A stretch of 64,000 nt of DNA from Tsukamurella conjunctivitidis (lineage in GTDB: Bacteria > Actinomycetota > Actinomycetes > Mycobacteriales > Mycobacteriaceae). Location of the stretch: NCBI RefSeq assembly GCF_007858475.1, contig NZ_VIGX01000021.1, forward strand, positions 1 through 64,000. The letters run 5' to 3'. Position 1 is the stretch's first letter. Each line of letters begins with the position of its first letter. Both the position numbers and the translations under genes were made by a program. The notes under the pieces were generated by a model. The model ran no database searches. It saw nothing but the letters and a program-made list of their open reading frames with translations, and had not been told where the DNA came from. Below are positions 1,935-64,000 of this stretch, in pieces.

Positions 1935-3470
1935 ATGGCTACCTCTCTCGCTGTCTCCGCACTGTCCCTCCGCTGGCCCGACGGCACGACGGTCTTCAAC
2001 GACCTGAGCTTCACCATCCCCGCCGGACGCGCGGCCCTGGTCGGTGCGAACGGCGCCGGCAAGAGCACCCTGCTGCGCATCCTCGCAGGTCGGATCCAGC
2101 CCACCTCGGGCTCCGTGAGTGGCACCGGCGTCGTCGGCTACGTCCCGCAGCACCCGCAGGCGCGCCCCGAGGACAGCCTCGCCGACGCGCTGGGCATCGG
2201 CGGCACCGTCGCCGCGCTCCGGCGCATCGAGGGCGGCTCGGCCGAACCCGAGGACTTCGAGGCCGTCGGCGACGACTGGGACGTCGAGGAGCGGGCGACC
2301 GCCGTCCTCGACGGCCTGGGCCTGCGTCTCGGGGCACTGGACCGCACCGTCGGGACCCTGTCCGGTGGCGAGGCAACCTTGCTCGCCATCGCCGGCCAAC
2401 TGCTCCTGCGGCCCGACACCCTGCTCCTCGATGAACCGACCAACAACCTCGACGAGCGGGCCCGCGGCCTGCTCACCGAGGCGTTGGAACGCTTCGGCGG
2501 CACGGCCGTAGTGGTCAGCCACGACCTGACGCTGCTCGAGCGGATGGATTCGACCGTCGAGCTCTACCGCGGCGCCGTCCGCGTCTTCGGCGGCCCGTAC
2601 TCGCACTACCGCGAGGTGCTCGACGCCGAGCAGGCCGCCGCGGAACAGGCCGTGACCTCGGCGAAGGTGGATCTCAAGGCGCAGCGCCGCGACCTCGTGG
2701 AGGCGCAGGTCAAGCTCGACCGTCGCGCACGGTTCGCCGCGAAGGCGGAGGCGGAGAAACGGGTGCCGAAGATCATCGCGGGCCTGCGGAAGAACGCCGC
2801 CGAGGTCTCCGCGGGCAAGCACCGGGGCCTGCACGAGGACCGCGTGGACTCCGCGCGCGACGCCCTCGACGCCGCCAAGGAGGGCGTCCGTGACGACCGC
2901 TCCGTCCGCATCGCCATGCCCGAACCGGGCCCGGGCCTGCACCGGCTCCAACTCGACGACGGTCCGCTGCAGGTCGTGGGCCCGGAGCGGATCGCGCTCG
3001 TCGGCCCGAACGGCGCCGGCAAGACGACGGTGCTGCACCGCGCCATCGCGGCCGCCCGCGCCGCGGAGCCGCCGACGATGATCGGCTACGTCCCGCAGGA
3101 CGTGCGGTTCGGGACCGCCGAGGAGGCCACGCTGCTCGACGCCGTCCGCGACGCCCACCCGGACCTCGACGCGCAGCATGCCCACGCCGCGCTGGCGCGG
3201 ATGCTGTTCCGGGGGCGGCAGTCGGAGCGGATCGTGAACACCCTCAGCGGTGGGGAGCGGCTGCGGCTCGCGCTGGCGATCGCGCTGCTCGGGGACCCGG
3301 CGCCGTCGCTCCTGGCGCTGGACGAGCCCACCAACAACCTCGACGTCCCGTCGGTGGAACTGCTGGTGGAAGCGCTGAAGTCCTGGGAGGGTGCGCTGGT
3401 GGTGGTCTCGCACGACCGCGCCTTCCTCGACCTGCTGGACCTCACGCGGGAGGTCGAGATCACCCGATAG
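1935..3470 (+). CDS. ABC-F family ATP-binding protein
   Basis: This soluble 511-residue protein has two ABC ATPase domains and no membrane segment, which defines the ABC-F class of ribosome-binding translation or antibiotic-protection factors. Domain 1 has Walker A GANGAGKST (about 37-45), the signature LSGGEAT and Walker B LLLDEPTNNLD. Domain 2 has GPNGAGKTT (about 357-365), LSGGERLRL and LALDEPTNNLD. Between them lies a charged, probably helical linker (about 220-315), the part that reaches into the ribosomal E site in this family. AAGGAG lies 6 bases before the ATG. It is shorter than the EttA housekeeping type (about 555 residues). A resistance role is possible because of the long leader, but the substrate cannot be told. 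Confidence 0.9.
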   Translation: MATSLAVSALSLRWPDGTTVFNDLSFTIPAGRAALVGANGAGKSTLLRILAGRIQPTSGSVSGTGVVGYVPQHPQARPEDSLADALGIGGTVAALRRIEGGSAEPEDFEAVGDDWDVEERATAVLDGLGLRLGALDRTVGTLSGGEATLLAIAGQLLLRPDTLLLDEPTNNLDERARGLLTEALERFGGTAVVVSHDLTLLERMDSTVELYRGAVRVFGGPYSHYREVLDAEQAAAEQAVTSAKVDLKAQRRDLVEAQVKLDRRARFAAKAEAEKRVPKIIAGLRKNAAEVSAGKHRGLHEDRVDSARDALDAAKEGVRDDRSVRIAMPEPGPGLHRLQLDDGPLQVVGPERIALVGPNGAGKTTVLHRAIAAARAAEPPTMIGYVPQDVRFGTAEEATLLDAVRDAHPDLDAQHAHAALARMLFRGRQSERIVNTLSGGERLRLALAIALLGDPAPSLLALDEPTNNLDVPSVELLVEALKSWEGALVVVSHDRAFLDLLDLTREVEITR

Positions 3471-3576
3471 CCCTCGGGAATTTCGCATTCTGCGGGCATC
3501 CGAAGCCGAATTCGGCCTCGGACTGCCCCTGAGCGCGAAATCTCCGGGGATTCGCATCGCTCGATATGCTGCGGGG

Positions 3577-4383
3577 ATGGATCCAGCGGTCGTGCTGCGC
3601 GGGGCGATCGCGAACAGCGCTCTCGAGGGCTGGGCGCCGACGGCGCTGGACGTCGAGCGCCTCCTCGCGCTGGCAGCGGGCACGGTGCGCCTCGATGCGT
3701 ACGTCGCCGCATCGATCGACCGCGCACTGCGGGCGGGAGAAGTCGGGCCGCCGGACTGCATCGACGTGCCGCTCGACTTCCCCGACTCGTTCTATCCGCG
3801 CACGCGGATCCTGCGCAACCGCTTCGGGATCCGCGACGCGGGCACCTTGCAGCAGCTCGAGTTCGAGATCGGCACGGCGTGCCAGTTCGGCATCGAGGCC
3901 GGGCTGATCGACGTGCCGGCGACCTTCGACGGCGTGCACCTCATCGCGATCCACCGCGCCCTGTTCGGCGACGTCTACCCGTGGGCGGGCGTCTTCCGCC
4001 GGTACGACATGGACCTTCGGCATCAGACCTTCCGCGCGGCGTGGATCGAGCGGTACCTCGGCGACGCCGCCGCGATCCTCCGCAAGCCCGTCGAGCACCT
4101 GGACCGCCGCGGTTACGCGCACCACCTCGCCGAGGCCTACGCGTACCTGAACTGCGCGCACCCGTTTCGCGAGGGCAACGGTCGCGCATCGAAGACCCTG
4201 CTGCAGCTCCTGGCGGCGCGGCACGGGTACCGGCTCGACTTCGCCGCGGTGACGAAGAAGCAGTGGGACGGCGCCTCGCGGCGGTCCGCCCCGGACTACG
4301 GGCACTACCGCCCCGACGCGCACGCCCTGTTCCGCGTCTTCGGCGCCATCACCACGACCGCCGAGATTCACACCGAATACTGA
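3577..4383 (+). CDS. Fic-domain protein with N-terminal VbhA-like antitoxin segment
   Basis: This 268-residue protein has the Fic core HPFREGNGRASK (about 195-206), matching HPFx(D/E)GNGRxxR except that the last Arg is Lys. Fic enzymes usually transfer AMP to protein hydroxyls. The catalytic His and the phosphate-binding GNGR are intact. Residues about 8-55, with SALEGW followed by a Pro/Asp-rich helix, resemble VbhA-type antitoxins, whose (S/T)xxxE(G/N) helix blocks the ATP site. Here the Ser is one residue closer to the Glu than the published motif. The ATG was chosen because TATGCT (3565-3570) lies 6 bases upstream (leaderless) and the Fic alignment starts soon after. No separate antitoxin gene is adjacent. 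Confidence 0.85.
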   Translation: MDPAVVLRGAIANSALEGWAPTALDVERLLALAAGTVRLDAYVAASIDRALRAGEVGPPDCIDVPLDFPDSFYPRTRILRNRFGIRDAGTLQQLEFEIGTACQFGIEAGLIDVPATFDGVHLIAIHRALFGDVYPWAGVFRRYDMDLRHQTFRAAWIERYLGDAAAILRKPVEHLDRRGYAHHLAEAYAYLNCAHPFREGNGRASKTLLQLLAARHGYRLDFAAVTKKQWDGASRRSAPDYGHYRPDAHALFRVFGAITTTAEIHTEY

Positions 4384-4424
4384 CCGACCGATACACACTG
4401 CCGTATTCGTCATAGACTGCCATC

Positions 4425-6556: not shown

Positions 6557-6593
6557 GCCGCCACCCTAGCGAGGGCGTCCGACAGGTTTCGTC

Positions 6594-7982
6594 TCAGCAC
6601 TCCGGCACGTTCACGGCGAGACCGCCGAGGGATGTCTCCTTGTACTTCGACAACATGTCGGCACCGGTCTGGCGCATGGTCTCGATGGCCTGATCCAGCG
6701 AGACACGATGCGTCCCGTCGCCGTGCAGGGCGATGCGCGCCGCGTTGACGGCCTTCACGGAGGCGATGGCGTTGCGTTCGATGCACGGGATCTGTACGAG
6801 CCCGCCGATCGGGTCGCAGGTCAGGCCCAGGTTGTGCTCGATCCCGATCTCGGCGGCGTTCTCCACCTGCGCCGGCGTGGCGCCCATGACCTGCGCCAGC
6901 GCGCCCGCGGCCATGGAGCACGCGGAGCCCACCTCGCCCTGGCAGCCCACCTCGGCGCCGGAGATCGAGGCCCGTCGCTTGTAGAGCACAGCGATCGCGG
7001 CGGCGGTGAGGAGGTAGTCGCACACCGTCTCCTCGCGACGTTCCGCGAGATGCGGCCGGAACTTGAGCGCGTAGTACAGCACCGCCGGCACGATCCCGGC
7101 CGCGCCGTTGGTCGGCGCGGTCACGATGCGGCCGCCGCACGCGTTCTCCTCGTTCACGGCCATGGCCGCCACGTTGAGCCAGTCCATCGCGTCGGCACCG
7201 TCGGAATCGATGATCCGGCGGTACAGCCCCGGCGCGCGCCGCTTGACCCCCAGTCCGCCGGGGAGCATGCCCTCGGCGCGGAAGCCCCGCTCGATGCACG
7301 CCTCCATGACCTCCCAGATGTGCAGCAGCCCGGCACGCACCTCGCGCTCCGCCACGTGCTCGTCCTCGCCCGTACGGGCCCGACGGAGTGCGATCTCGTT
7401 CTCCAGCATGAGCTCGGGCACGGTTCGACCGGTGCGCGGGCAGGTCTCCAGCAGCGAAGCAGCGGTGTCGAAGTCGTGGGGAACGCCGGGGCTGCCGGCC
7501 AGCGGATTCACCGTCTCGGCACCGGACTCCCGCTCGACGAAGCCGCCGCCCACGGAGTAGTAGACGGCCTCGTGCTCGCCACCGTCGGCGAGCTCGGCGC
7601 GGAAGCGGATCCCGTTGGTGTGCCGCGGCAGCACCGTCAGCGGGTGCAGCACGATCTGCTCGGCGCACAGCGGCACCTCGTCGCGGCCCGCGAAGAGCAC
7701 CGTGCGGGTGGCCTCGATCTCGGCCCCGCGCTTCTCGACGTACTCGGGATCGACGGTCTCCGGCCGGTTGCCCTCGAGCCCCAGGAGCACGGCCGCGAAG
7801 GTGCCGTGCCCGCGCCCCGTGGCGGCGAGCGAGCCGTACAGGTCGACGTGCACGGCGCGCACCGTCGACGGGGAGGACCGCAGCTCGTCGGCGAAATCCG
7901 CACCGGCCCGCATGGGCCCGACGGTGTGCGAACTCGACGGGCCGATGCCCACCGAGAACAGCTCGAACACACTGATCGTCAC
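6594..7982 (-). CDS. sdaA: L-serine ammonia-lyase, iron-sulfur type
   Basis: This 462-residue single-chain L-serine dehydratase deaminates L-serine to pyruvate and ammonia using a [4Fe-4S] cluster. The N-terminal beta domain has [14 protein letters not shown] at about 14-27. The C-terminal alpha domain has the three cluster cysteines in [17 protein letters not shown] and PCIERN contexts. The length matches bacterial SdaA/SdaB. The GTG start is 6 bases from TAGGCT (minus strand, 7989-7994) and probably leaderless. The gene is divergent from the cyclase gene with only 31 bases between the starts. Confidence 0.95.
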
Positions 7983-9386: not shown

Positions 9387-10787
9387 CTATCCGACGGTGC
9401 GCTCGCCGGGCGGAGCGTTCACGGTCGGCGAAACCGGCGCGTCGCCGGGTGCCCCGGCTCCGCCGTCCTCCGCTGCGACGGTCGGATCGGACGCTCCCCC
9501 GTCGGGGCCGTCCTCGTCATCGCGGAGGGGATGCTCCAGCTCGTCGCTGGGCATCCGCGCCGCGAGGATCGCGATCACCGCGAGCGGCACCGGGACCAGC
9601 GCGGCCAGGGCGAAGGTCGCGGTGAGGCCGATCGCCTGACTCACCGGGCCCGCCAGGGCGAAGGAGAGCGGCATGAACACCAGCGAGACGAAGAAGTCGA
9701 GGCTGGAGACGCGACCGAGCAGACGCCGCGGCACCCGTCGCTGCAGCAGCGTGCCCCAGATCACCACCGGCGCCTCGAACAGCACACCGAGAACGAAGCC
9801 CGCGATCACCATGGGCCACACGGTCTCGGCGATGCCGAACACCAGCATCGGCAGGGACGCGACACCCCAGATGCCCATCATCACGGTGAGGTAGCGATGC
9901 GGCATCTTCCGGGCGGCCATGACCAGCGCGCCGGCCACACCGCCGAAACCGTAGGCGGCCAATATCATCGAGTGCTCGCTCGCGGCGCCGTGCGCCTGAT
10001 CCTTGATCGCGAAGGGCAGCAGGACGTCGATCGGCCCCACGGTCACGAGCACCATCAGGCTCGCGAACAGGAGGGTCGCCAGCAGCCAGGGGGTCCGCCG
10101 CACGTACCGGATCCCCTCCCACAGCTCACGCAGCGGAGAGCCGGGCTGCTCGCCCTCGTCGGCACCGTCGGCCTCCGGCACCCGGATCCGGACCACCCAG
10201 AGGGCGGCGAGCAGGCAGATCCCGCCCGCCACCAGGAGCGCTGCGCCGGGGTCCGCGACGGCGATGATCCACGCCGCGACGGCCGGCCCGACGGCCATCG
10301 CCGCAGCGGGGCGGACCGCGGACTCGTAGCCGTTGACCGCGAGCAACTCGTCGGGCGGAACCAACCGCGGGACGAGCGCGGAATAGGCGGGGAAGTAGAA
10401 GCCGGACACGAGGCCCAGCGCGAGGGAGCCCGCCATGAGGATCGGTACCGTGACGGCGCCGGTCACGATGAGCGCACCGATGCCGCCGATCACCAGCACC
10501 TTGAGCAGTTCGAGGACGAACAGGATGCGCTGCTGCGACACCCGGTCCGCGAGGACGCCGCCCGCCAGAGTGGAGACGAGCAGGCCGATCGAGGCCGCTC
10601 CGGAGACCAGCGAGACGCTGGTGGCGGAGCCGCCCATGTGGATCACCTGCCACACCACGGAGACCAGCCACATGCCGTCGGTGACCAACGCGCACAGCAG
10701 CGTCACGAAGAGGAGGCGGTAATCCCGGCGCAGCAGAGGCCGCAGCATGCGGGGCATGCGCGCGGGGGCGCCGAGGTCGGTATGCAC
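9387..10787 (-). CDS. MFS transporter (EntS/MFS_3-like)
   Basis: This 466-residue major facilitator has about 12 hydrophobic helices and a [11 protein letters not shown] loop 2-3 motif, typical of the MFS_3 (DHA3) group that contains enterobactin and macrolide exporters. A charged cytoplasmic insert (about 200-215, rich in Glu/Asp) separates the halves, and the last 50 residues are a hydrophilic acidic/Pro tail. The GTG start directly follows an AAAAGG element. An internal ATG 11 codons in (MPRMLRPL) is an alternative. It is divergent from a second MFS gene. The substrate is not predictable. Confidence 0.82.
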
Positions 10788-13215: not shown

Positions 13216-14196
13216 ATGACGAAACGACTCCCCGCCCTCGCCCTCGTGGCCGTCATGTTCGCGTGGGCCTCCGCCTTCGTGGTGATCCGCGGGCTCGGGT
13301 CCGGCCCCGCCCCGCACATCTCCCCCATCGCCATGGCCGAGGGCCGCCTCCTGGTGGGCGCCGCGGTCCTCGGCGTGATCTGGGGGATGAACGCCCTGTA
13401 CAACGGAGGTGTCCGCTTGCCCCGCGGCCGCACGCTCGCGCTCACCGTCGGATACGGCGCACTCTGGTTCGCGCTGTACACCGTGCTGGTCAACGCCGCA
13501 GAACAGCACCTCGACGCCGGCACGACCGCCCTGTTGGTGAACATCGCGCCGATCATCGTCGCGGTCCTGGCCGGTGCCTTCCTCCACGAGGGCTTTCCGC
13601 CGCTCCTGGTGGTCGGCATCGCGATCAGCTTCGCGGGCGCGGCCGTCATCGCCTTCACCGGCGACGGCAGGCGCGACGGTGCCGGCGTCGCCCTGGCCGT
13701 CGCCGCGGCGCTGCTCTACGGGATCAGCGTCGTCGCGCAGAAGCTGGTGCTGCGCACCGTCGACCCGCTGACCGCGACCGCCCTGGGTGCCGGCGTCGGC
13801 GCGATCGTCCTGCTCCCCTGGGCGCCCCGCCTCTTCGACGAGCTCGCTGCCGCGCCGATCGGCAGCACGGTCGGCGTCGTCTACCTCGGGCTGGTCCCCA
13901 CGGCCCTGGCCTTCCTGCTCTGGGCGTACGCGCTGGCGCACACCTCGGCGGGCGTCGCCGCGTCCTCGTCCTACGCCGTCCCGGCGCTGTCGATCCTGCT
14001 CAGCTGGATCTTCCTGTCCGAGACGCCCACCGCGTGGGGCCTGCTCGGCGGCGCGCTGTGCCTCGTGGGCGTGGCGGTCTCGCGGATCAGGATCGGCTCG
14101 TCGGGCCGACGTCCCGGCGCAGCACCGACGGCCACTGCGCGACCTCCTGCGGAGTCCGCGCGACCGACAGCGACGCCCGCGGGAGCGTCCTGCTGA
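13216..14196 (+). CDS. EamA/DMT-family transporter
   Basis: This 326-residue protein has ten hydrophobic helices arranged as two EamA repeats (about 8-140 and 150-290). The family moves metabolites such as amino acids or purine-like compounds, usually outward. ASAFVVIRG near helix 1 and SWIFLSETPTAWGLLGGALCLVGV near helix 10 are typical. The last 35 residues are a low-complexity Pro/Ala/Thr tail whose codons overlap 110 bases of the convergent hydrolase gene, so the true C-terminus may have grown by read-through. The neighbouring LysR gene is its probable regulator. Confidence 0.85.
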   Translation: MTKRLPALALVAVMFAWASAFVVIRGLGSGPAPHISPIAMAEGRLLVGAAVLGVIWGMNALYNGGVRLPRGRTLALTVGYGALWFALYTVLVNAAEQHLDAGTTALLVNIAPIIVAVLAGAFLHEGFPPLLVVGIAISFAGAAVIAFTGDGRRDGAGVALAVAAALLYGISVVAQKLVLRTVDPLTATALGAGVGAIVLLPWAPRLFDELAAAPIGSTVGVVYLGLVPTALAFLLWAYALAHTSAGVAASSSYAVPALSILLSWIFLSETPTAWGLLGGALCLVGVAVSRIRIGSSGRRPGAAPTATARPPAESARPTATPAGASC

Positions 14197-14872
14197 GCCG
14201 CTCCGCCGTCGACACCGGATGCGACGGGTCGTCGACCCACGCGAGCAGGGTGACCGGCACGGCGATGCGGGCGATCTCCCCGGGGTCGGGGAGATCGCTC
14301 GCGGCGGCGCCGCGGAACAGGGACGGCAGCAACGGTTCCGGGACGTCGGGCACCGTCGGCGGATGACCGACGGTGGCCGGCGGCGGCACCGCGCCCTCCC
14401 CCGCGGCGAGGAAGACCTCCAGCCCCTGCTTCTCGATGAGCGTTGCGGCGGTGCGATATTCGTCGGCCTTGGCCACGCGCGTCTCCCACGCGGTCGGCGG
14501 CACCATGAGGGTGAGACCACTGAAGCGTTCCGGGTCGCGCACGGCCGCATGCAGGAGCGTGGAGGTACCCATCGACGGCCCGACGCCGTGCACGCGCTCG
14601 CCGGGGAACCAGTGGTCGAGGAGGCGGAGGAGATCGTCGGCGAGGTTCGGCCAGCGGTAGTCCTCGGGAACCGGCCGCCCGGTGGAGGCGCCGTGCCCTC
14701 GGGCGTCGTAGCGCAGCAGCCGGGTTCCGCTGAGGCCGCGTCCGAGATCGAGATCCAGCACCCGGTCGCGCGCCCGGCTCGACGTGAGGCCGTGCAGCTG
14801 CACCACGGGGTGTCCGCCCTCGTCGCTGTACTCGGCGGCGAGCTGCGCCCCGGGAACGTCGAAGCTGGTCAT
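14087..14872 (-). CDS. Alpha/beta hydrolase
   Basis: This 261-residue protein has an alpha/beta-hydrolase fold with the oxyanion segment QLHGLTSS (about 25-32), the nucleophile elbow GPSMGTS (Ser near 100) and a late HPVSTAERL with the probable catalytic His. There is no signal peptide, so it acts in the cytoplasm. AAGG lies 5 bases before the ATG. Its 3' 110 bases run antisense to the end of the EamA gene. The substrate cannot be inferred. Confidence 0.8.
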   Translation of the reverse strand: MTSFDVPGAQLAAEYSDEGGHPVVQLHGLTSSRARDRVLDLDLGRGLSGTRLLRYDARGHGASTGRPVPEDYRWPNLADDLLRLLDHWFPGERVHGVGPSMGTSTLLHAAVRDPERFSGLTLMVPPTAWETRVAKADEYRTAATLIEKQGLEVFLAAGEGAVPPPATVGHPPTVPDVPEPLLPSLFRGAAASDLPDPGEIARIAVPVTLLAWVDDPSHPVSTAERLSRTLPRASLSVARTPQEVAQWPSVLRRDVGPTSRS

Positions 14873-22478: not shown

Positions 22479-22523
22479 CCCGCGGCCGCCCGCGGTCGGA
22501 GGCACCGTCGTAGCCTGGGGGAC

Positions 22524-43982: not shown

Positions 43983-44344
43983 ACGAGACTCTCTTCCTCA
44001 GTGTTTCCGCCCGGTGGGCGCGTGCGAACCGCCTGCGCGGCGCCGGTGTGCGGCACCGTCGGTACCACAGGAGGACCCCGTGACACGCCAACGCGAGCGG
44101 TTCAGTGCTCGTCAGGCACTGTATGCGAGATCTCAGTTCCTGACAAACTCTTAGTCGGAGCGCCGCGTCACCCTGTTACAACCACTGGTGAAGATCGATG
44201 CGCCGAGGCAGGTCAGCGCTGTACATGAGGTGTTTTTCGGTCTCGATCACGCCGGTTTCGTTTCCCCGATGCTCTCAGCTTCCGCCCAGACTCATGCCCT
44301 GCGGGAGGGTGTCGAGGCACCGTCGGACCCCGTACCGTCGGGGC
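43983..44344. other. Divergent intergenic region between antigen-85 and msrC genes
   Basis: These 362 bases hold the promoter regions of two divergent genes. Visible items: a GTCACC/GTTACA pair (44167-44180) 8 bases apart, two copies of the decamer GGCACCGTCG (44052-44061, 44316-44325), and the msrC -10 TACCGT (44333-44338). No coding frame is supported here. Confidence 0.6.
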
Positions 44345-44830
44345 GTGTCGTTCACACTTCCGGACCTCTCCGATTCCCCCGCCGAGCGCTACGCCGAGCT
44401 GGAGGCCTACGCCCGGGCCCTCGTCGACGGCGAGCCCGATCGCATCGCCAACGCCGCGAACCTCTCGGCCCTGGTGAAGGCGACGGTGCCCGACCTCAAC
44501 TGGGTCGGCTTCTACTTCTTCGACGGTGCCGAGCTCGTCGTCGGGCCGTTCCAGGGCCTCCCGGCGTGCATCCGCATCCCCCTCGACCGGGGCGTGTGCG
44601 GCGCGGCCGCACGCACCCGCGAGACGCAGCGCGTCGACGACGTCCACGCCGTCGCCGACCACATCGCCTGCGACGGTGCCACCAACTCCGAGCTCGTCGT
44701 GCCGCTCGTGCGCGACGGTGAGCTGATCGGCGTCTTCGACCTCGACAGCGAGCGCATCGCGCGGTTCAGCGACGACGACCAACGCGGCCTCGAAGCGATC
44801 GCCGCCGTCTTCGTGGAGTCGCTGCGCTGA
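44345..44830 (+). CDS. msrC: Free methionine-(R)-sulfoxide reductase (GAF type)
   Basis: This 161-residue GAF-domain enzyme reduces free Met-(R)-sulfoxide. All three active-site cysteines of the family are present: Cys75 in LPACIRI, Cys85 in RGVCGAAA and Cys109 in HIACDG, followed by SELVVPL. The GTG start was chosen because TACCGT (44333-44338) is 6 bases upstream and the family begins there; longer in-frame starts give unrelated sequence. Three copies of the decamer CGACGGTGCC lie inside the gene. Confidence 0.88.
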   Translation: MSFTLPDLSDSPAERYAELEAYARALVDGEPDRIANAANLSALVKATVPDLNWVGFYFFDGAELVVGPFQGLPACIRIPLDRGVCGAAARTRETQRVDDVHAVADHIACDGATNSELVVPLVRDGELIGVFDLDSERIARFSDDDQRGLEAIAAVFVESLR

Positions 44831-47900: not shown

Positions 47901-50900
47901 TCACCGGCCGCCGTCGGCCCGGTTGAGCTCGTCCGCCATGTGCGTCGCGATCTTGCCGACGTACGGCTCGTCGATGATCTGCAGGTGGTCGCCGCCGATC
48001 TTGACGATCCGCAGGTCCTCGACCACCGGTGCCCAGCCGCCGTCCGGCGCGATGTCGGCGAAGTTCGGCTCCAGCTCGACCGCACCGTCGTGCATGCGGT
48101 CCGCCCGGTACAGCGTGACCGTGCCGCCGAACGTGCCGTAGTCGGCCGGGTTCACCTTGATCAGCATGCGGTTGTCCACGAAGGACGTGCGCTGGTGCTC
48201 GATCATCGACGTCGGGATCTTCTTGTCGGAGAGTTGCACCAGTTCCATGATGATCCGGAACTGACCCTCGTCGTCGGCCGCGTTGAGCCGGTCCATCGGC
48301 AGCTCGATCTCGTCGCCGATGTCGTAGTTCTTGCGCGCGAACTTCTCCCAGCGCTCCAGGCGGGCCTTCTTCTCGGCAGGCTCGTCGGTGAGCGGGACCT
48401 TCGGGGCCACGACGTCGAGCAGACCGACGTACGCGACCTCCTTGCCCTCGTCCTCGAGCGCGCGCGCGAGCCCGTAGGCGAAGGCGCCGCCGAGGCTCCA
48501 GCCCGCGAGCCGGTACGGCCCCTCCGGCTGGATCTCCTTGAGCCTGGGCAGGTACTCGGCGACGCGCTCCTCGATCTCGCCCTCGACGCGCTCGAAGCCG
48601 TAGATCGGCAGGTCGTCCGGGAGCTTGCGCAGCAGCGCCTCGTAGGCGGTGGTGTTGCCGCCCGCGGGGTGGAAGAGGAAGAGCGGCTTGCGGTCCGTGT
48701 TCTCCGGCTTGCGCAGCGTACGGACGAAGCCCTCCACCGGGGTCGCCTCGTTCATGACGGCGCCCACGTAGGTCGCCATCTCCTCGATGTTCTTCGAGTC
48801 GATGACGTCCTCGATGTCGATCTCGCCGCCGGCGCGCTCCGAGAGGCGGGCGGTCAGCTTCTCCGCCACGTCCTCGGACAGCACGTCGAGCTCGTTGAAG
48901 ACGCCGCCGGGGGACTTGCCCACCACAATCGCGTAGGTCGCGAAAGTGAGGCGCTCCGCGGCGTCGCGCGGGGGCACGCCGTCGCCCACGGCCGCCGCGA
49001 CGGCCGCGCCGTCGAGCAGGTCCGGGGTGTCGGCCTTCTCGTCCGACGGTGCCGCGTCGGGCTCCGCAGCCGGCTCGGCCGGGCTCTCGGCGGGCGCCTC
49101 GGCCTTCGCCGCGGCCTCCGCCTTGGCGGCCTTCATCATCTCGGCGAGCTGCCCGGCGTCGGCGAGTTCGCCGCTCCCGGACTGGTGCTCGGCGAGCGCG
49201 TCCACCTGGTCGCGGTGCTCGACCGCGTACTCGACGAACTGCACCACGTCGTTGAACGACGCGTCGCGCACCGCCTGGATCTGGATCGGCGGGATGTCGA
49301 ACTCGTACTCGGCGCGGTTCTTGATGCGCATCGCGATGAGCGAGTCCATGCCCAGGTCGATGAGCGGGATCTCCTTGGGGAGGTCCTCGATCTCGAAGCC
49401 CATGATCTCGGCGATGATCAGGCCGAGGCGGTGTTCCACCGTCTCACCCGAATCCGGCGACCAGCGCTCGCCGCTGCCCTCGGGGGCGGGGGCCTCGGTC
49501 TCCTCGGAGACGGTGATCGCGGGCTCGGCGTCGAGCTCGTCCATCTCCTCGACCGCGGGCGCGGCGGCCTTGGTGATGAGCGGCGCCGCGGCGGTGCCGG
49601 AGGCCTCGCCGCCCACGACGACGGCGTCCAGCAGGAGCCGGAAGCCCTTACCGGTGTTCTCGTGCACCTGGATCGACGCGCCGCCGGGGTGCGGCGTCAG
49701 CGTCGTGGTCAGGGTGAGCCCGTCCTTCGGCTCGCCGTGCTCGACCGCTGCGGTGACCGCGGCGCCGTCGAGCACCTGGACGGCGGCGTGCTTCGCCAGG
49801 TCGACCAGGGAGATGCGCGTCTGGTCGCCCAGGGTGAGCGCGCCGGCGTCGAGCTGCCAGACGTGCCGGCCGTCGGGCAGCGCGACGTGGCCGCCGGGGA
49901 CCATGCCCGAGCCACCGTCGGGCAGCTTGGTCTGGATCCAGATGTGCTTGCGCTGGAACTTCGTTCGCGGCACCGGCGCGTAGCGGCCGGGGCCGAACAG
50001 CGCGGCGACGTCCACGTGGTGTCCGCGCGCGAAGACGGTGGCGAGCGCCGTCATGATCGTGCCGGGCTCGTCCTCCTTGCGCTTGAGCGTCTGCACCAGC
50101 GCGGCGTCCTGGATGCCGGAGCCGAACGTGACGGCGGCGACGGAGATCAGCGTGATCGGGTTCGGCGAGAACTCGATGAAGGTGCGGTAGCCGGCCTCGA
50201 CGGCCTTCTCCACGGCCTGGGTGAACCAGACGCTGTGGCGCAGGCCCTTGATCCAGTAGTCCACGTCGTGCACCGGCGCGTGGCCGGCCTTGTAGAACTC
50301 GTCCTTGTTCACGGTGGAGTACATGGGGTACTGCAGGGCGTGCGGCTCGATGCCCATGAGCTCGGCCTGCAGTTCACCGAGCAGCGGATCCATCTGCGAG
50401 GTGTGGGAAGCGCCGCGGGTCACCAGCTTCCGCGCCATGAGCCCCTTGGCCTCGGTCTCGGCGACGATCTTGTCGATGACCTTGCCGGGGCCGCCGAGCA
50501 CGGTGTGGGTGGGGGCCGCGTAGACGCAGATCTCCAGACCCTCGTAATCGCCGAGCACGGTCTCGATGTCGGCGGCGCTGTACTCGACGAGCGCCATGAA
50601 GCGCTCCATCTCCTCGGGCAGCATCTCCTCGCCCTCGCCCATGAGGCGCGAGCGCTGACAGATCACGCGGACGGCGTCCTCCAGCGAGAGGCCGCCGGTG
50701 ACCCACGCCGAGGTGGCCTCACCCATCGAGTGCGGCAGCACCACACCGGGTTCGATGCCGTAGTGGCGGAACAGACCGACGAGGGCGACCTGGATGGCGA
50801 AGATGCCCACCTGGCCGGTCTCGATGTGGAAGGTCTGCTCGTCGTCGGTGATCATGTCGGCGTAGTCGTTGCCCGACTCGTCGATGATGAGCTCGTTGAC

Positions 50901-53000
50901 CTGGTCGAAGTAGTGCTTGAAGACGGCGTCCTCGAGATAGAGCTGCTTGGCCATCTTGCGGTGATGGCTGCCGAAGCCGGAGAAGATGAACGCCGGTCCG
51001 CTCGCGTCGGGCTGGTTGGCGGAGATCACGTTCGGGGCGTTCTTGCCCTCCGCGATGGCGCGGAAGCCCTTGATCGCCTCGTCGAGGTCCTTGGCCATGA
51101 CCACCGAGCGGACGCGGCCGTGGTTGCGGCTCGCGAGCGTGCGGCCGATCTCGGCGAGCGTGTACTCCTTCGCCTCGTCCGACTCGAGCCACGCGAGCAG
51201 CTCGGCGGCGGCGGCCCGCCGGCGCGACGGGACGTAGGCCGTGAGCACCAGCGGGATCGCGGCGCCCTCGACGGTGGCGGGGTGGAAGTCCGGCACGGCA
51301 TCCGCCGGGGCCTCGTCGGCATCGACGGCACCGTCGACGACCTCGGGCGCGACGTACTCCTTGATGACCACGTGGGCGTTGGTGCCGCCGAAGCCGTTGC
51401 CGGTGACGCCGGCGAGCTTCGCGCCGGAGTACTTGGGCCACTCCGTGTTCCGCGTCGCCATGAGCAGGCGGTTCGCCTCGAACTGGATGTACGGGTTGGG
51501 GCCGGCGAAGTTCAGCGAGGCCGGGATCCGGCCGTTGCGGATGGCGAGCAGCACCTTGGCGACGCCCGCGATGCCCGCGGCCGCCTCGAGGTGGCCGAAG
51601 TTGGTCTTCGCGGAGCCGAGCAGCAGCGGCTTCTCGGCCTCGCGGCCGCGGCCGAGGACACGGCCGATGGCGTCGGCCTCGAGCGGGTCGCCCAGGATGG
51701 TGCCGGTGCCGTGCGCCTCGAGGTAGTCGACGGTGCGGGGGTCGATGCCGGCGTCGATGTACGCGTCGCGCAGGTTGATGACCTGCGCCTCCGGGTTCGG
51801 CGCGAAGATGCCGTTGGACTTGCCGTCGGAGGTGACCGCCGAACCCGCGATCACGCCGAGGATGTCGTCGCCGTCGCGCTCGGCGTCGGCGAGGCGCTTG
51901 AGCAGCACGACGCCGCCGCCCTCGGCGCGGATCATGCCGTTCGCGTCGGAGCTGAAGGCCTTGATCTTGCCGTCGGGCGCCTGCGCGCCGAGGCTGTCGA
52001 AGCCCAGCGTCGCGGCGGGCACGATGAGCATGTTCACGCCGCCGGCGACGGCCATGTCGGTCTCGCCGTCGCGGAGACTGCGCACGGCCTGGTGGATCGC
52101 GACCAGCGAGGAGCTGCACGCGGTGTCGATCGCGACCGACGGGCCGTGGAAATCGTAGAAGTAGGAGACGCGGTTGGCGACGATCGAGGTCGACGTGCCG
52201 GTGAGCGCGTACGGGTTCGCCTTCGTCGGGTCGGCGACGGCCAGCATCTGGTAGTCGTTGGCCGAGCTGCCCATCCACACGCCCGTGCGGGTGCCCTTGA
52301 CCGAGCTGGGCGGGATGTTGGCCTGCTCCAGCGCCTCCCAGGTGAGCTCGAGCGCGAGCCGCTGCTGCGGGTCGACCATCTCGACCTCGCGAGGGGTCAT
52401 CTGGAAGAACTCGGCGTCGAAGGAGGCCACGTCGTCGAGGTAGCCGCCGAAGGTGTTGGCCTCGTCAAGGACGGCCTTCAGGCGCGGGTCCTGCTTGAAC
52501 TCGAGCCAGCGGTCCTCGGGGAGATCCGTGGTGGCGTCGCCGTTCCCGATGAGGAACTCCCACGTCGACTCGGGGGTCTCGCCGGCCTTGGGGAAGCGGG
52601 TCGCGAGGCCGACGACGGCCACGTCGTGCGTGCCGCGGTTCGCCTCGAACTCCTCGCCGCGGTCGTACTGCGCCGCCTCAGCCGCGAGGTCGTCGTCGGA
52701 GACCACCGGGTCACCGTCGATGATGCGCTGGCTGAGCAGGGCGATCGTCGGGTGCTGGAAGGCGACGGTGGCCGTCAGCTGGACGCCGGTGAAGTCCTCG
52801 ATGTCGCTGGCCATGGAGACCGCGTCGCGCGAGCCCAGGCCGAACTCGTCGAGCGACTTGTCGTCGGTGATGTTCTCCAGCGGCTGCTTGGTCGCGTCGG
52901 CGATCCACTGCCGCATCCACGCACGCAGTTCCTCGAGGCTCAGATCCTCGCGGGCCTTGCCGGTCGGGCCTTCATGGGGGGTGTACTCGTTCTCAGCCAT
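47901..53000 (-). CDS. pks13: Polyketide synthase Pks13, mycolic acid condensase
   Basis: This 1699-residue type I synthase has an N-terminal acyl carrier domain (about 20-100, Ser57 in GLGSRDAV), ketosynthase (about 120-560, Cys near 294 in TACSSSLVAIH), acyltransferase (about 640-1060, Ser in LPHSMGEA), C-terminal carrier (about 1180-1260, Ser1220 in GMDSLIAM) and thioesterase (about 1430-1690, Ser near 1499 in GWSLGG). This is the Pks13 order. It condenses the meromycolate from FadD32 with the carboxylated alpha chain and the thioesterase moves the product to trehalose. A huge open frame on the other strand is a composition shadow. Confidence 0.97.
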   Translation of the reverse strand: MAENEYTPHEGPTGKAREDLSLEELRAWMRQWIADATKQPLENITDDKSLDEFGLGSRDAVSMASDIEDFTGVQLTATVAFQHPTIALLSQRIIDGDPVVSDDDLAAEAAQYDRGEEFEANRGTHDVAVVGLATRFPKAGETPESTWEFLIGNGDATTDLPEDRWLEFKQDPRLKAVLDEANTFGGYLDDVASFDAEFFQMTPREVEMVDPQQRLALELTWEALEQANIPPSSVKGTRTGVWMGSSANDYQMLAVADPTKANPYALTGTSTSIVANRVSYFYDFHGPSVAIDTACSSSLVAIHQAVRSLRDGETDMAVAGGVNMLIVPAATLGFDSLGAQAPDGKIKAFSSDANGMIRAEGGGVVLLKRLADAERDGDDILGVIAGSAVTSDGKSNGIFAPNPEAQVINLRDAYIDAGIDPRTVDYLEAHGTGTILGDPLEADAIGRVLGRGREAEKPLLLGSAKTNFGHLEAAAGIAGVAKVLLAIRNGRIPASLNFAGPNPYIQFEANRLLMATRNTEWPKYSGAKLAGVTGNGFGGTNAHVVIKEYVAPEVVDGAVDADEAPADAVPDFHPATVEGAAIPLVLTAYVPSRRRAAAAELLAWLESDEAKEYTLAEIGRTLASRNHGRVRSVVMAKDLDEAIKGFRAIAEGKNAPNVISANQPDASGPAFIFSGFGSHHRKMAKQLYLEDAVFKHYFDQVNELIIDESGNDYADMITDDEQTFHIETGQVGIFAIQVALVGLFRHYGIEPGVVLPHSMGEATSAWVTGGLSLEDAVRVICQRSRLMGEGEEMLPEEMERFMALVEYSAADIETVLGDYEGLEICVYAAPTHTVLGGPGKVIDKIVAETEAKGLMARKLVTRGASHTSQMDPLLGELQAELMGIEPHALQYPMYSTVNKDEFYKAGHAPVHDVDYWIKGLRHSVWFTQAVEKAVEAGYRTFIEFSPNPITLISVAAVTFGSGIQDAALVQTLKRKEDEPGTIMTALATVFARGHHVDVAALFGPGRYAPVPRTKFQRKHIWIQTKLPDGGSGMVPGGHVALPDGRHVWQLDAGALTLGDQTRISLVDLAKHAAVQVLDGAAVTAAVEHGEPKDGLTLTTTLTPHPGGASIQVHENTGKGFRLLLDAVVVGGEASGTAAAPLITKAAAPAVEEMDELDAEPAITVSEETEAPAPEGSGERWSPDSGETVEHRLGLIIAEIMGFEIEDLPKEIPLIDLGMDSLIAMRIKNRAEYEFDIPPIQIQAVRDASFNDVVQFVEYAVEHRDQVDALAEHQSGSGELADAGQLAEMMKAAKAEAAAKAEAPAESPAEPAAEPDAAPSDEKADTPDLLDGAAVAAAVGDGVPPRDAAERLTFATYAIVVGKSPGGVFNELDVLSEDVAEKLTARLSERAGGEIDIEDVIDSKNIEEMATYVGAVMNEATPVEGFVRTLRKPENTDRKPLFLFHPAGGNTTAYEALLRKLPDDLPIYGFERVEGEIEERVAEYLPRLKEIQPEGPYRLAGWSLGGAFAYGLARALEDEGKEVAYVGLLDVVAPKVPLTDEPAEKKARLERWEKFARKNYDIGDEIELPMDRLNAADDEGQFRIIMELVQLSDKKIPTSMIEHQRTSFVDNRMLIKVNPADYGTFGGTVTLYRADRMHDGAVELEPNFADIAPDGGWAPVVEDLRIVKIGGDHLQIIDEPYVGKIATHMADELNRADGGR

Positions 53001-56224: not shown

Positions 56225-56607
56225 GTGTGGGTACTCCTGGTCGACTGGGGTGCGGTCGTGCAACGTTGCGCACAGCCTAACCGCTGCCCGACGGTGCCTC
56301 GGTCGCCCTGCGATTCCGGTGCCGGTCACCTCCGTGAGCGTCCGACGGCGCCGCGACCACTCGCGGTGCCCGCTCAGTGCGCGAGTAAGCAGCAGACGTC
56401 GATCACGTTCACCCCGTGCTCGGCAAGGGGCGCGAGGGGAATCACACGCGGTCGTCGCCGGCGCCCACACCGCCGCGACAGGCGATCGCGATCCGTCGTC
56501 ACACCTGGGACGGTAGGTGTCCCGACCCGTCGCCGCGGGCGGCGGCATCCACTGCGCGACGCAGCAGCAGCCGGCCCGTCCCTGACTCAGGCGCGGGCGG
56601 GCCGCGG
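56225..56607. other. Intergenic region upstream of the LLM oxidoreductase
   Basis: These 383 bases separate the oxidoreductase from the cutinase gene, both minus-strand. They contain the TAGGCT box (56274-56279) and palindrome GCAACGTTGC (56260-56269) at the oxidoreductase promoter, and one copy of the decamer CGACGGTGCC at 56289-56298. The rest shows no gene or clear structure; the part next to the cutinase stop could act as a transcription end. Confidence 0.55.
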
Positions 56608-58591: not shown

Positions 58592-58595
58592 AAGA

Positions 58596-59036
58596 TCACT
58601 TCTTGCAGTAGGAGGCCCGCGCCTCGGTGATGAACTTCTTCGCGTTCCCGGACGCGGCGTCGCCGTCGTACGGGCCGAGGATGCCGACCACGAAGGGCTC
58701 GAGGTTCTTGGCGTCGCGGCCGGACTTGTCGTACTCGCACGCGAACTGCGCGGCGTTGATGACCACGTCGTCGGGGGCCTTCACGCCGTCCTGGCGGACC
58801 TTGGCGATGAAGTCCTTGTCCTTCTGCGTCAGGGCCGTGTTCGCGGCGGAGCTCGCGCCCGGGTAGCCCGACGGTGCCGTGGCCGACCCGGGGGCGGTCG
58901 CGGGCAGCGACGTGGGCTCACCCTCCACGGGAGTGGTGGGCGCCTCGACCGTCGAACTGCCGCCGCACGCGACGGCACCGAGCAGCACGCCGCTCGTCAT
59001 CACTGCGGCCGCGAGGGCTCCCCGAAGTCCAGCCAT
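58596..59036 (-). CDS. Small lipoprotein with DUF732-like domain
   Basis: This 146-residue protein has a signal peptide with a probable lipid-attachment Cys24 in GAVACGG (the -3 residue is Ala, a slight deviation), a Thr/Pro/Ser-rich linker and a helical domain of about 75 residues. The pattern FIAKVRQDGVKAPDDVVINAAQFAC...C resembles mycobacterial DUF732; two Cys likely pair. Function unknown. GGAGAGAAG precedes the ATG. It is upstream of and probably co-transcribed with the cutinase genes. Confidence 0.7.
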   Translation of the reverse strand: MAGLRGALAAAVMTSGVLLGAVACGGSSTVEAPTTPVEGEPTSLPATAPGSATAPSGYPGASSAANTALTQKDKDFIAKVRQDGVKAPDDVVINAAQFACEYDKSGRDAKNLEPFVVGILGPYDGDAASGNAKKFITEARASYCKK

Positions 59037-59120: not shown

Positions 59121-60752
59121 TCAGCGTGCGGTCGCAACCCCGTTGACCAGGGCGATCACACCGCGCTCGAAGCGCTGCTCGAAGCCGCCGGGGATCGGGG
59201 TGGCATCGGCCACGGGGTAGCCGAGGCGGCCGCCCTCATAGCCCTGGCGCCCCCATTCGGCGAAGATCGGACCGTTGTTCACCACCGTCGCGGGGGTCCT
59301 CGGCGACCAGTAGACCTGCCCGCCCTGGAAACGCTGGAAGGCGCCGGCGGGGAGCTTCGTCTCGTCGCCCAAGGGCAGGCCGAGCGGGGACCGCTCGTAG
59401 TTCAGGGCGGCGTACTTGTCCCGGATCGCGCCGCGCACCGCGCGGGCACCGGTCTGCGGGCTCCAGTACACGGTGCCGTGCTGGAACTGCTGGTACCGGC
59501 CCTTCTTGTCGGCGAGCACCCGCTCGCCGCCGGTCGGGTAGCCGAGCGGCCCGCCGGGGCCGCCCGTGCCGAGGTAGGCGCCGCCGATCGCGCCCCCGAC
59601 GACCTGCGCGCCGGTGTCCGCCGACCAGAAGACCTGGCCGCCACGGAAGTCCTGCGCGCGGCCGCCGGGAACGGCGTACTCGACGGTGACGCACGAGCCG
59701 AGCGTCGGGGCCTTGGGGGCGGCCTCGCCGATCGCGCCGGCGATGCCGCAGGGCTTCGGGTTCGCCACGCCGAGGGCCGCCTGCACCTGCGGCCAGGCCT
59801 GCCCGTTCTCGAACTGCCAGTAGGGCCAGCTGTGGTTGCCGGACGGGCGGTAGAGCGCGTTCGCCGGGATGCCGAGCCGGTTGAGCTCGATCGCGAAGGC
59901 CTGGTTGGACGAGCGGGCCAGCACCTCGAGCGCCATCGCCTGCAGGTCGGTCGGCGCGCCGGTGCCGCCCGAGCCGTTGCCCGAGCTGAAGTACAGGCTG
60001 GTGCCGCGCAACTTCTCCGCCAACTTGAGCGGATCGTGCTGCGCCCAGGCGGGGTCCGTGGGCGGGCCGTACATGGCGTCGGCGTTGAAACCGCCCGCGT
60101 CGCGCATGGCGATCCCGATCGACTCTGGGGTGCCGGGCGTGCTGGTGGACAGGATGCCGGAGTAGGAACCGGCGAACCGGTACAGGCCCTTGTTCCGGGC
60201 CGCCAGGGTGACGGCGGCGGTGCCGCCCATGGAGACGCCCGCCGCGGCGCGCACGTCGGTGGCGCGCCAGCCCTGCTGCAACAGCGGCGGCAGTTCCTTC
60301 GCCAGGAAGGTCTCCCACCGGTAGTTCTTGCCGTTGTCGGGGCGCTTCCAGTCGGTGTACCAGCTGGACTGGCCGCCGACGGGCAGCACGACGGTCACGT
60401 TCTTGTCGCGGTAGAAGTCGGCGACGTTCGTCTCCAGCAGCCAGCCGTTGCGGTCCTCGCGCGCCCGCATCCCGTCGAGCAGGTACAGCGTGGGGAACTT
60501 CGCCTTGGGGTCCGCGTGCCAGTCGCGGGCCAGCAGCAACTGGATCTTGATCGAGTCGTTCATCGCCGCGGAGTAGACGGTGAGGTCCACCTGGTGGTCG
60601 CCCTGCCACTGCGCGTCGGTGATCCGGGACTTCGCGGGGGCCGGGTCCGCGTGCGCGGGCGCGGGGTTCAGGGCCGACGGTGCCGCCACGACGGTCCCCG
60701 CCGCCACGGCGCCGGCCACGAGCAACGTTCCGATTCGGCCCAGCGATGACAT
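59121..60752 (-). CDS. Antigen-85 mycolyltransferase with C-terminal LGFP repeats
   Basis: This 543-residue exported protein has a signal peptide (about 1-35, cut near AHA), Ag85 domain (about 40-330) with Ser174 in GVSMGGTA and His in GNHSWPYW, then about 180 residues of LGFP repeats (GPLGYPTGGE, SPLGLPLGDE, GRLGYPVADA). LGFP repeats are thought to hold proteins to the cell wall, as in corynebacterial Cop1/PS1-type mycolyltransferases. It is in the position of fbpA/fbpD near the M. tuberculosis mycolate locus. It is the most distant of the three family members here. Confidence 0.92.
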   Translation of the reverse strand: MSSLGRIGTLLVAGAVAAGTVVAAPSALNPAPAHADPAPAKSRITDAQWQGDHQVDLTVYSAAMNDSIKIQLLLARDWHADPKAKFPTLYLLDGMRAREDRNGWLLETNVADFYRDKNVTVVLPVGGQSSWYTDWKRPDNGKNYRWETFLAKELPPLLQQGWRATDVRAAAGVSMGGTAAVTLAARNKGLYRFAGSYSGILSTSTPGTPESIGIAMRDAGGFNADAMYGPPTDPAWAQHDPLKLAEKLRGTSLYFSSGNGSGGTGAPTDLQAMALEVLARSSNQAFAIELNRLGIPANALYRPSGNHSWPYWQFENGQAWPQVQAALGVANPKPCGIAGAIGEAAPKAPTLGSCVTVEYAVPGGRAQDFRGGQVFWSADTGAQVVGGAIGGAYLGTGGPGGPLGYPTGGERVLADKKGRYQQFQHGTVYWSPQTGARAVRGAIRDKYAALNYERSPLGLPLGDETKLPAGAFQRFQGGQVYWSPRTPATVVNNGPIFAEWGRQGYEGGRLGYPVADATPIPGGFEQRFERGVIALVNGVATAR

Positions 60753-62681: not shown

Positions 62682-62796
62682 CGCTTCCTCGATTCGTCGG
62701 CATCCGTCGGGGTTCGGATCGCAAGTCGCCAATGTACGCTGCCGCGTCACCCCGCTGCAGGCGATCGCAAACAGCGGCCCGTCGGGCGCGAATCGG

Positions 62797-64000
62797 TCAG
62801 CCGTCGAAGAGAACTCCGGGATTGAGCAGGCCCGACGGGTCCCAGGCGCCCTTGAGGCGGCGCATGAGCGCGACCTGATCCGCGCCGCGCTGCCGCGCGA
62901 GCCAGGGCACCTTCGCGCGGCCGATACCGTGCTCCGCGCTGACGGTGCCGCCGTGCGCCAGCACCTGCCCCAGGACGGCGGCCTCCAGCCGCTCCGCGAG
63001 CTCCTCCGGGAACCGGCGGGCCGGCGCCGTCGGCCCGGGCAGCAGGTTGACGTGGACGTTCCCCTCCGCGAGGTGCCCGAAGAGCACCGGCTCGACGTCC
63101 GGGGAGACCGCGGCCACGGCCCCGACGATCGCCTCCTGCGCGGCGGCGAAGTCCTCGAGCGGCACGCCCACGTCCAGCTTGACCGGTACACCCGCGGCGT
63201 TCACCGCCTCGGTCGTGCGGGCGCGGTAGCGCCACAGCCTGATCCGGTCCTCAGGCCCGGCGCCCACGGCGATCCTGTTGTCCGGCAGCAGCCCCGCGAC
63301 GACGCCCGCCGCCTCCGGCGCACCGTCGAACTCGGCGAACACCCAGCAGCCGTCCGTCGGGAGCGGCGCGGGCGCGCCGAGGTGGGCGGCGACGCGGGCG
63401 ACGGCCGCACCGTCGGACCACTCGAGCGCGAGGAGCCCCGGAAGGCCCCGCAACGCGGGCACGGCCGCAACGGCGTCGACGACGGACGGGAAGGCGAGCA
63501 CGAGCACCGTGCGCTCGCCCGGCGCGGCGTCGAGGCGCCACGTGACGTCGGTGATGACGGCGAGGGTGCCCTCCGAGCCGACGAGCTGGTCGACGAGGTC
63601 GTAGCCGGTGTTGTCCTTGGCCGGCGGACGCCGGCGGTCGAGGACGGCACCGTCGGACAGGACGGCCCGCAGCCCGGCGATCCGGGCCCGCGCGGAGCCG
63701 TAGCGGAGCACCTCCGCTCCCCCGGCGTTGGTGGCGGCCGCGCCGCCGACGGTGGCGGACTCCCCCGACGCCAGGGACAGTCCGCAGGTCAGGCCGCGCG
63801 CGGCGGCGAAGGACTCGAGCGCCGCGAGGGTGACCCCGGCGCCCGCGGTGACCGCGCCGTCGGTGACCTCCCCGATCGCGTCGAGGCTGCTCAGGGACAG
63901 CACGACCGCCCCGGCGGGCGGGACCGATCCGGCGACGAGGCCCGTGTTGCCGCCCTGAGGCACCACCGCGACGCCGGCCCGGGCGCACGCGGCCATCACC
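62797..64000 (-). CDS. FAD-linked oxidase (GlcD-like), cut by the window edge
   Basis: The partial gene is open to the right edge. The visible 401 residues begin inside the PCMH FAD domain (VVPQGGNTGLVAGS, ATNAGG, NTGYDLVDQLVGSEGTLAVITDV) and finish with the cap (GHLAEGNVHVNLLPG, VSAEHGIGRAK, NPGVLFDG). It belongs to the D-2-hydroxyglutarate/D-lactate dehydrogenase group. The missing N-terminus should be about 50-60 residues. It is a distant relative of the FAD oxidase next to accD4. Confidence 0.85.
   Translation of the reverse strand, partial: VMAACARAGVAVVPQGGNTGLVAGSVPPAGAVVLSLSSLDAIGEVTDGAVTAGAGVTLAALESFAAARGLTCGLSLASGESATVGGAAATNAGGAEVLRYGSARARIAGLRAVLSDGAVLDRRRPPAKDNTGYDLVDQLVGSEGTLAVITDVTWRLDAAPGERTVLVLAFPSVVDAVAAVPALRGLPGLLALEWSDGAAVARVAAHLGAPAPLPTDGCWVFAEFDGAPEAAGVVAGLLPDNRIAVGAGPEDRIRLWRYRARTTEAVNAAGVPVKLDVGVPLEDFAAAQEAIVGAVAAVSPDVEPVLFGHLAEGNVHVNLLPGPTAPARRFPEELAERLEAAVLGQVLAHGGTVSAEHGIGRAKVPWLARQRGADQVALMRRLKGAWDPSGLLNPGVLFDG

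Follow-up and report, generated by a model that had tools for sequence, protein, structure and literature searches.

What keeps a single ten-base word recurring along an actinobacterial chromosome, on both strands, within genes and between them? The question is raised by 64,000 nucleotides of Tsukamurella conjunctivitidis (contig NZ_VIGX01000021.1, positions 1 to 64,000; hereafter the window), in which the decamer GGCACCGTCG is present in 30 exact copies spanning positions 2202–63655. Our exact recount assigned 16 copies to the plus strand and 14 to the minus strand, the same numbers as in a preliminary description of this DNA, and ranked GGCACCGTCG first by frequency among all 10-mers of the window. 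The 6,300 possible 10-mers with its base composition average 0.86 copies, against 30 for GGCACCGTCG, 22 for its one-base shift and 12 for the next unrelated word, other words thus being far rarer. Markov models of order 0, 2, 3 and 4 predict 0.7, 1.7, 2.3 and 4.3 copies, the first of these agreeing with the earlier estimate of less than one copy from base composition. Within window genes predicted by our own simple gene caller, which may miss genes, 25 copies were found, whereas 200 synonymous-codon shuffles gave 4.8 ± 1.9 (at most 10), far below the observed number. Neither of the two outcomes that the preliminary description had named as refuting it, similar counts in codon-preserving shuffles or equal abundance of other words of like composition, was obtained in the window. 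The copies occupy four codon registers, where at least three had been reported; all six Ala-Pro-Ser sites named previously are indeed written GCA CCG TCG, and Asp-Gly-Ala is spelled GAC GGT GCC at 12 sites, as had been claimed (Table 1). Copies outside genes had been described in four places; our gene caller leaves five there, corresponding to 5 copies in 5.3 kb of non-coding versus 25 in 58.7 kb of coding DNA, a non-coding share that the gene caller may inflate.

A genus-wide word beyond codon usage and composition

The whole source genome (5.07 Mb, 343 contigs) contains 1,445 copies of GGCACCGTCG (692 + 753), against 31 (19 + 12) of the reversed word used as control. Fifteen other Tsukamurella genomes hold 360–2,346 copies each, giving densities of 72–479 per Mb across 16/16 genomes of the genus, while 14–362 copies were counted in each of 45 genomes from other genera of the family and order and the peak among other genera of the class (245 genomes, 103 genera) is ~78 per Mb, a ceiling obtained by our own arithmetic with rounded genome sizes. 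The two sparsest Tsukamurella genomes are G006 (72 per Mb) and G007 (Tsukamurella sp. 8F, 129 per Mb), which are basal within the genus in a tree built only from fadD32; judged by eye, word density increases up this tree. G006 overlaps the top of the other genera in density, but its ratio of exact to one-base-off copies (0.107; range across Tsukamurella 0.11–0.38) lies above those of the 19 other-genus genomes compared (0.030–0.081). Samples of 40 kb from each of nine other genera yielded no comparable iterated word of their own (a tenth, partly masked genome was left out of the count). GGCACCGTCG is therefore a genus-wide iterated DNA word concentrated in Tsukamurella.

Larger samples indicate that the excess is not created by codon choice. 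In 1.2 Mb taken evenly over the chromosome of Tsukamurella sp. PLM1 (27% of bases), 545 copies were counted where Markov models predict 37 (order 3) or 62 (order 4). Predicted genes in this sample held 431 copies, whereas 40 synonymous-codon shuffles gave 50 ± 7 and never more than 65. Similarly, 400 kb of the single-contig genome G003 contained 152 copies (14 expected, order 3), of which 146 were in genes (20 ± 4 in 60 shuffles). The view that codon usage, codon-pair bias or base composition yields the word as a by-product can draw on the Gly-Thr-Val register (GGC ACC GTC), which alone accounts for 29 of the 50 copies that shuffled PLM1 genes are expected to hold, and on the observation that GGCACCGTCG is commoner than its reverse in most other genera too. 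Yet five of the six register-by-orientation classes in PLM1 exceed every shuffle (the sixth consists of one copy, matched by some shuffles), including the Ala-Pro-Ser class with its rare GCA codon (76 versus 1.7), the PLM1 count is 8.8-fold over the order-4 expectation, A/T-ending codons are kept only within the word (see below) and the 245 other genomes of the class lack such density. This by-product reading is already contradicted by the counts, and we regard it as very improbable.

The word also biases the protein sequences of Tsukamurella, in which Asp-Gly-Ala occurs at 1.55–1.66 times and Ala-Pro-Ser at 1.74–1.88 times the dipeptide expectation, compared with 0.91 and 1.04 in nine other genera. 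Equal coding and non-coding density, as suggested by PLM1 (0.45 versus 0.48 per kb), was set aside because that assembly appears frameshifted (completeness 83; its FadD32 match stops at residue 450 of 636) and because G003 contradicts it, with 0.404 per kb in coding (146 copies) and 0.155 per kb in non-coding DNA (6 copies).

Maintenance, form and placement of the word

Comparison of the window with 14 other Tsukamurella genomes (17–57 kb alignable per genome) allowed conservation to be assessed at A/T-ending codons with a conserved amino acid, counted over ordered and hence non-independent species pairs. Such codons are identical in 853/1,322 cases (0.645) inside the motif and in 23,463/102,869 outside it, and identity falls to 0.22 at 1–10 bp, 0.22 at 11–30 bp and 0.18 at 31–60 bp from a copy. 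Excess conservation was seen against 11 of the 14 genomes taken singly, the exceptions being G009, G068 and G006, with 12, 2 and 3 codons compared. As A/T-ending codons are kept inside the motif and not beside it, the DNA word itself is maintained; together with the shuffles and Markov nulls, this strongly supports selection or biased retention acting on the DNA word, in line with the preliminary suggestion of selection on DNA rather than protein. A regional recombination signature was considered and rejected, conservation at all wobble positions showing no trend over distances of 1 to 5,000 bp from a copy (0.71–0.76). One-base differences between species use 24 of the 30 possible single-step changes, at all ten positions and with transitions and transversions alike. 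In Tsukamurella sp. 8F, considered for possible decay of the word following Tad loss, only one of seven aligned window sites is exact, although these are few sites. With 545 exact and ~1,500 one-off copies (our sum) in PLM1, the balance formula quoted for Neisseria gives a scaled selection coefficient (2Nes) near 2.4, compared with about 4 for the Neisseria DNA uptake sequence (DUS), whose exact-to-one-off ratio is about 2.4 (PMC2397512).

In PLM1 the inner CACCGTC is strict, and changes are best tolerated at positions 1, 2 and 10. Relative to one-off control words, a purine is preferred immediately downstream with a C two bases beyond, and the favoured context is C-GGCACCGTCG-R. Spacing is near-Poisson with a mean of 1.9 kb within 20-kb PLM1 stretches, with no regularity. 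Neighbouring copies within 60 bp comprise 10 pairs in opposite and 10 in the same orientation; a terminator or hairpin role was rejected, as inverted pairs are not in excess even though some look hairpin-like. As an exception to this general pattern, two inverted word pairs in locus L129 of PLM1 (~2170–2215 and 3585–3627) have flanks that also pair and resemble terminator hairpins. With replichores delimited by the sampled GC skew, whose sign flips at about position 1 and at about 2.2 Mb, CGACGGTGCC, the word as read on one strand, lies 287 times on the leading and 258 times on the lagging strand of PLM1 (p 0.23, 95% confidence interval 0.48–0.57), while bare GGTG is more polarised (0.55). The balance in G003 is 74 versus 78, a weak test made on the first third only with strand assigned by local skew. 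No gradient between origin and terminus was apparent by eye in the PLM1 sample.

Most of the mobile DNA examined, phages apart, is poor in the word. The first 70 kb of pTpau01 (T. paurometabola, 99.8 kb), with a relaxase and many transposases, contain 2 copies (P(≤2) = 5e-5 at 210 per Mb), and the last 30 kb contain 21, in and beside a siderophore/non-ribosomal peptide synthetase cluster. No copy was seen in ~15 kb and ~12 kb examined of two inserts among Tad-type pilus genes, those of G003 (P 0.005) and G009 (P 0.08). The G003 parts include two integrase-family genes and a transposase-like gene; the G009 insert has a serine recombinase gene next to the break, as well as genes for terminase, portal and capsid proteins. 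The mobile plasmid backbone and two integrase-bearing inserts are thus nearly without the word. The first 50 kb of the Tsukamurella phages TIN2 and TIN3 hold 2 and 1 copies (0.4 expected in each, order 3). In 5-kb bins of PLM1 density drops with GC content, but this trend is no evidence by itself because the one-base-off control words drop likewise. Separately, the siderophore/synthetase region of pTpau01 (71.7–96.8 kb) holds 21 copies in 25 kb, a density of ~800 per Mb and ~4 times that of genome G009.

The individual window copies are listed in Table 1. Two window genes are mentioned by name here, that at 47901–53000, which we take to be pks13-like, and that at 53107–55017, presumably FadD32-like, which has its nearest named relatives in Tsukamurella. 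Several database records were encountered along the way. CAJCHX010000558.1, a GenBank contig filed under Acidobacteriaceae bacterium BOG_194, resembles Tsukamurella (FadD32 identity 84%); the record of Kitasatospora arboriphila NRRL B-24581, whose fadD32 locus is 72% identical (protein) and shares a local repeat word with a Williamsia locus, is probably mislabelled or contaminated; and NZ_LR134454.1 (T. tyrosinosolvens, 288,890 bp), from a plasmid collection, covers 54% of window positions 20001–44000 at 88.6% and is probably a piece of chromosome filed as a plasmid. In T. asaccharolytica four copies spaced exactly 43 bp apart (G065:C3:74513-74651) form a tandem repeat containing the word.

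Table 1. Exact copies of GGCACCGTCG in the 64-kb window, with strand, reading context and, where available, conservation in aligned Tsukamurella genomes
Position	Strand	Context	Conservation
2202..2211	+	Gly-Thr-Val register	
7194..7203	+	opposite to gene, Asp-Gly-Ala register	
10161..10170	+	opposite to gene, Asp-Gly-Ala register	
13674..13683	-	opposite to gene, Asp-Gly-Ala register	
14349..14358	+	outside predicted genes	
22501..22510	+	outside predicted genes	
23503..23512	+	Ala-Pro-Ser (GCA CCG TCG)	
25088..25097	+	opposite to gene, Asp-Gly-Ala register	
32192..32201	-	Ala-Pro-Ser (GCA CCG TCG)	
32488..32497	-	Gly-Thr-Val register	
33602..33611	-	Gly-Thr-Val register	
35066..35075	+	opposite to gene, Asp-Gly-Ala register	
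36229..36238	+	opposite to gene, Asp-Gly-Ala register	
36589..36598	+	opposite to gene, Asp-Gly-Ala register	
36807..36816	-	Gly-Thr-Val register	
38320..38329	+	Ala-Pro-Ser (GCA CCG TCG)	
38486..38495	+	Gly-Thr-Val register	
38638..38647	-	opposite to gene, Asp-Gly-Ala register	
44052..44061	+	outside predicted genes	
44316..44325	+	outside predicted genes	
44481..44490	-	opposite to gene, Thr-Val register	
44521..44530	-	opposite to gene, Asp-Gly-Ala register	
44671..44680	-	opposite to gene, Asp-Gly-Ala register	
47557..47566	-	Gly-Thr-Val register	exact in 13/14 (one change in G002)
49044..49053	-	Ala-Pro-Ser (GCA CCG TCG), inside gene 47901–53000	
51327..51336	+	opposite to gene, Asp-Gly-Ala register	exact in 0/14
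56289..56298	-	outside predicted genes	
58869..58878	-	Ala-Pro-Ser (GCA CCG TCG)	
60675..60684	-	Ala-Pro-Ser (GCA CCG TCG)	
63646..63655	+	opposite to gene, Asp-Gly-Ala register	

Candidate readers of the word

Genes for a possible uptake route are widespread. ComEC was found in 41/41 genomes and DprA in 35/37, both including 16/16 Tsukamurella. Tad-type T2SSF proteins were found in 35/37, although G019 counts only through a match below the curated cut-off, and none was found in G006 and G007; in agreement with this, tadB/tadC matches are present in 14 of the 16 Tsukamurella genomes and missing from the two of lowest density. In the source genome tadA, tadB, tadC and the pilin gene are adjacent, and the G003 locus encodes two T2SSF proteins, a TadE/G-like protein and a short pilin-like protein (Pfam DUF4244), which we take to be the Flp pilin from its position, its size and known Flp sequences. 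Tsukamurella sp. 8F retains a tadA match with an in-frame TAG and a partial pilin match ~10 kb off, with no tadB/tadC found, and no tadA, tadB, tadC or pilin match was found in G006, a fragmented assembly that is 93% complete. In another actinobacterium, Micrococcus luteus, Flp pili are reported to be required for natural transformation, to which ComEA and ComEC are also linked (review PMC6370729).

The mechanism we favour, at somewhat less than an even chance, is that GGCACCGTCG serves as a DNA-uptake-type self signal read by a putative Tad/Flp competence pilus. A surface receptor of this pilus would bind DNA bearing the word; this DNA would pass through ComEC, with DprA protecting it, and be recombined into the chromosome. 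As word-bearing fragments would be imported preferentially, the word could spread by molecular drive where its coding cost is small, and would mark chromosomal DNA as self. We infer that the word is read in DNA uptake, that the Tad pilus is its reader and that Tsukamurella is naturally competent. The correlation between Tad genes and density supports an uptake role but is confounded by phylogeny. The Tad/Flp genes are moreover an insertion hotspot in Tsukamurella: tadA and tadB matches lie 16–43 kb apart in five genomes (G003, G004, G008, G010 and G013), and the pilin gene is split by ~12 kb in G009 and G010. Since elements disrupting competence genes are a known theme, these inserts lend mild support to a competence role, although the elements may equally well have inserted there for other reasons. 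A bolder and more doubtful proposal is that the word is the first actinobacterial uptake sequence, read by a Tad/Flp pilus across the mycolate outer membrane, and that elements at tadA/flp switch off the uptake that would remove them. From the literature searched, no earlier actinobacterial DNA uptake sequence is known to us.

Several observations weigh against an uptake signal. Phage TPA2 carries 6 copies in its first 50 kb (1.5 expected, order 3), exceeding what such a signal predicts, and the six genomes with inserts in or between Tad genes (the five above and G009) still hold 209–356 copies per Mb. Unlike the Neisseria DUS, the word is not concentrated between genes (see the G003 densities above), shows no excess of inverted pairs and has a far lower exact-to-one-off ratio. 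Tad genes, ComEC and DprA are also present in genera without the word, so that a genus-specific receptor must be assumed, and the correlation of Tad genes with density amounts to at most one or two events among the basal lineages of the genus, where, with density rising up the tree, ancestry alone could explain it. Finally, our literature searches found nothing pairing Tsukamurella with natural transformation.

Another possibility, which we consider unlikely, is that CGACGGTGCC acts as a Chi-like site, recognised by the RecBCD of the genus via RecC and switching degradation to recombination, with its density selected for break repair. RecC is indeed present in 16/16 Tsukamurella genomes (20/37 genomes overall, the rest being four others; 5/22 genera examined), copies are chiefly coding and scarce in the plasmid backbone, flanking bases are tolerated in a graded manner, and 72–479 copies per Mb bracket the E. 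coli rate of one Chi per 5 kb (PMC8022716). The word is, however, a 10-mer without leading-strand polarity in the one genome sampled (27%), where bare GGTG is more polarised; unpolarised Chi candidates are nevertheless listed for other species in PMC8022716. Its resemblance to E. coli Chi, at 5/8 matches, was rejected as being at chance level, 32% of random window decamers equalling or exceeding it. RecC is also present in both low-density genomes, G006 and G007, and the RecC-bearing relatives G016, G020, G021 and G039 hold only 134–259 copies. Similarly unlikely in our judgement is a binding site for an abundant protein, specific to Tsukamurella, that organises the chromosome or associates with the nucleoid. 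Chromosome-wide spread in both orientations, site-by-site maintenance and scarcity in the plasmid backbone would suit such a protein; irregular spacing and the lack of polarity or of a visible origin-to-terminus gradient would not, and many sites in coding sequence, here at a cost in amino-acid choice, are unusual for nucleoid-associated proteins.

Still less probable is an origin like that proposed here by analogy with the cyanobacterial highly iterated palindrome HIP1 (GCGATCGC), in which methylation-dependent repair or conversion bias, and not selection for binding, would make the word. Both are highly iterated, clade-specific and tolerant at their ends, the one-off variants of HIP1 also being commonest at its first and last positions (PMC4390886). 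HIP1, though, is a palindromic octamer, whereas GGCACCGTCG is non-palindromic, and it exchanges with 24 of 30 single-step variants affecting every one of its ten positions, which speaks against one biased repair reaction. Such a reaction should strongly deplete one neighbour; among one-off neighbours with an expectation above 10, the lowest observed/expected ratio is 0.50 (8 versus 16). The FtsK-orienting polar sequences (KOPS) and architecture-imparting sequences (AIMS) are likewise short, frequent and non-palindromic, but are skewed towards the terminus in each replichore, and the Tsukamurella word has no skew between replichores. Of the likenesses raised in the preliminary description, therefore, that to uptake sequences fits best, as a putative one, while FtsK-orienting sites fail because replichore bias is lacking, HIP1 because the word is no palindrome and a polarised Chi because leading and lagging strands are balanced.

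The Tsukamurella word among known uptake sequences

The closest counterparts are the DUS of Neisseriaceae and the uptake signal sequences of Pasteurellaceae, which are also short, non-palindromic and clade-specific words with hundreds to thousands of copies on both strands, spaced near 1–2 kb (1.1–1.5 kb for Neisseria DUS; PMC2397512), conserved in orthologues, in balance with one-off variants and scarce in the mobile DNA examined. Copy number, conservation above the surroundings, scarcity in acquired DNA (TPA2 excepted) and the co-occurrence of a type IV filament with ComEC and DprA are thus found in Tsukamurella as for DUS; inverted terminator pairs and intergenic enrichment are not. Inverted DUS pairs are common but not defining, as a single DUS suffices for transformation (PMC2397512). 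The Tsukamurella word differs in sequence and phylum, is mostly coding and weaker (0.11–0.38 versus about 2.4 exact to one-off), and its receptor and competence are putative. Neisseriaceae DUS, moreover, come in dialects (PMC3630211), whereas the nine other genera sampled, at 40 kb each, showed no comparable word.

GGCACCGTCG is a real genus-wide iterated word under DNA-level maintenance, and it is not described in the literature searched: no title on an iterated word in Tsukamurella was found among the matches listed, the titles among the matches listed for the decamer and its complement concern other subjects, a search pairing DNA uptake sequence with Actinobacteria and 'overrepresented' found nothing, and the available text of PMC5217627 mentions Tsukamurella 0 times.

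For a word to be kept at hundreds to thousands of sites in each genome, some DNA transaction must read it. With 16 genomes, lineages of low and high density and a quantified motif, the origin of iterated words becomes testable in this genus. If Chi-like or architectural, GGCACCGTCG would be the first such word in Mycobacteriales known to us. If it is an uptake signal, sequence-specific natural transformation would have evolved independently among mycolic-acid Actinobacteria, and views of how genes are exchanged in the neighbourhood of Mycobacterium and Nocardia would change.

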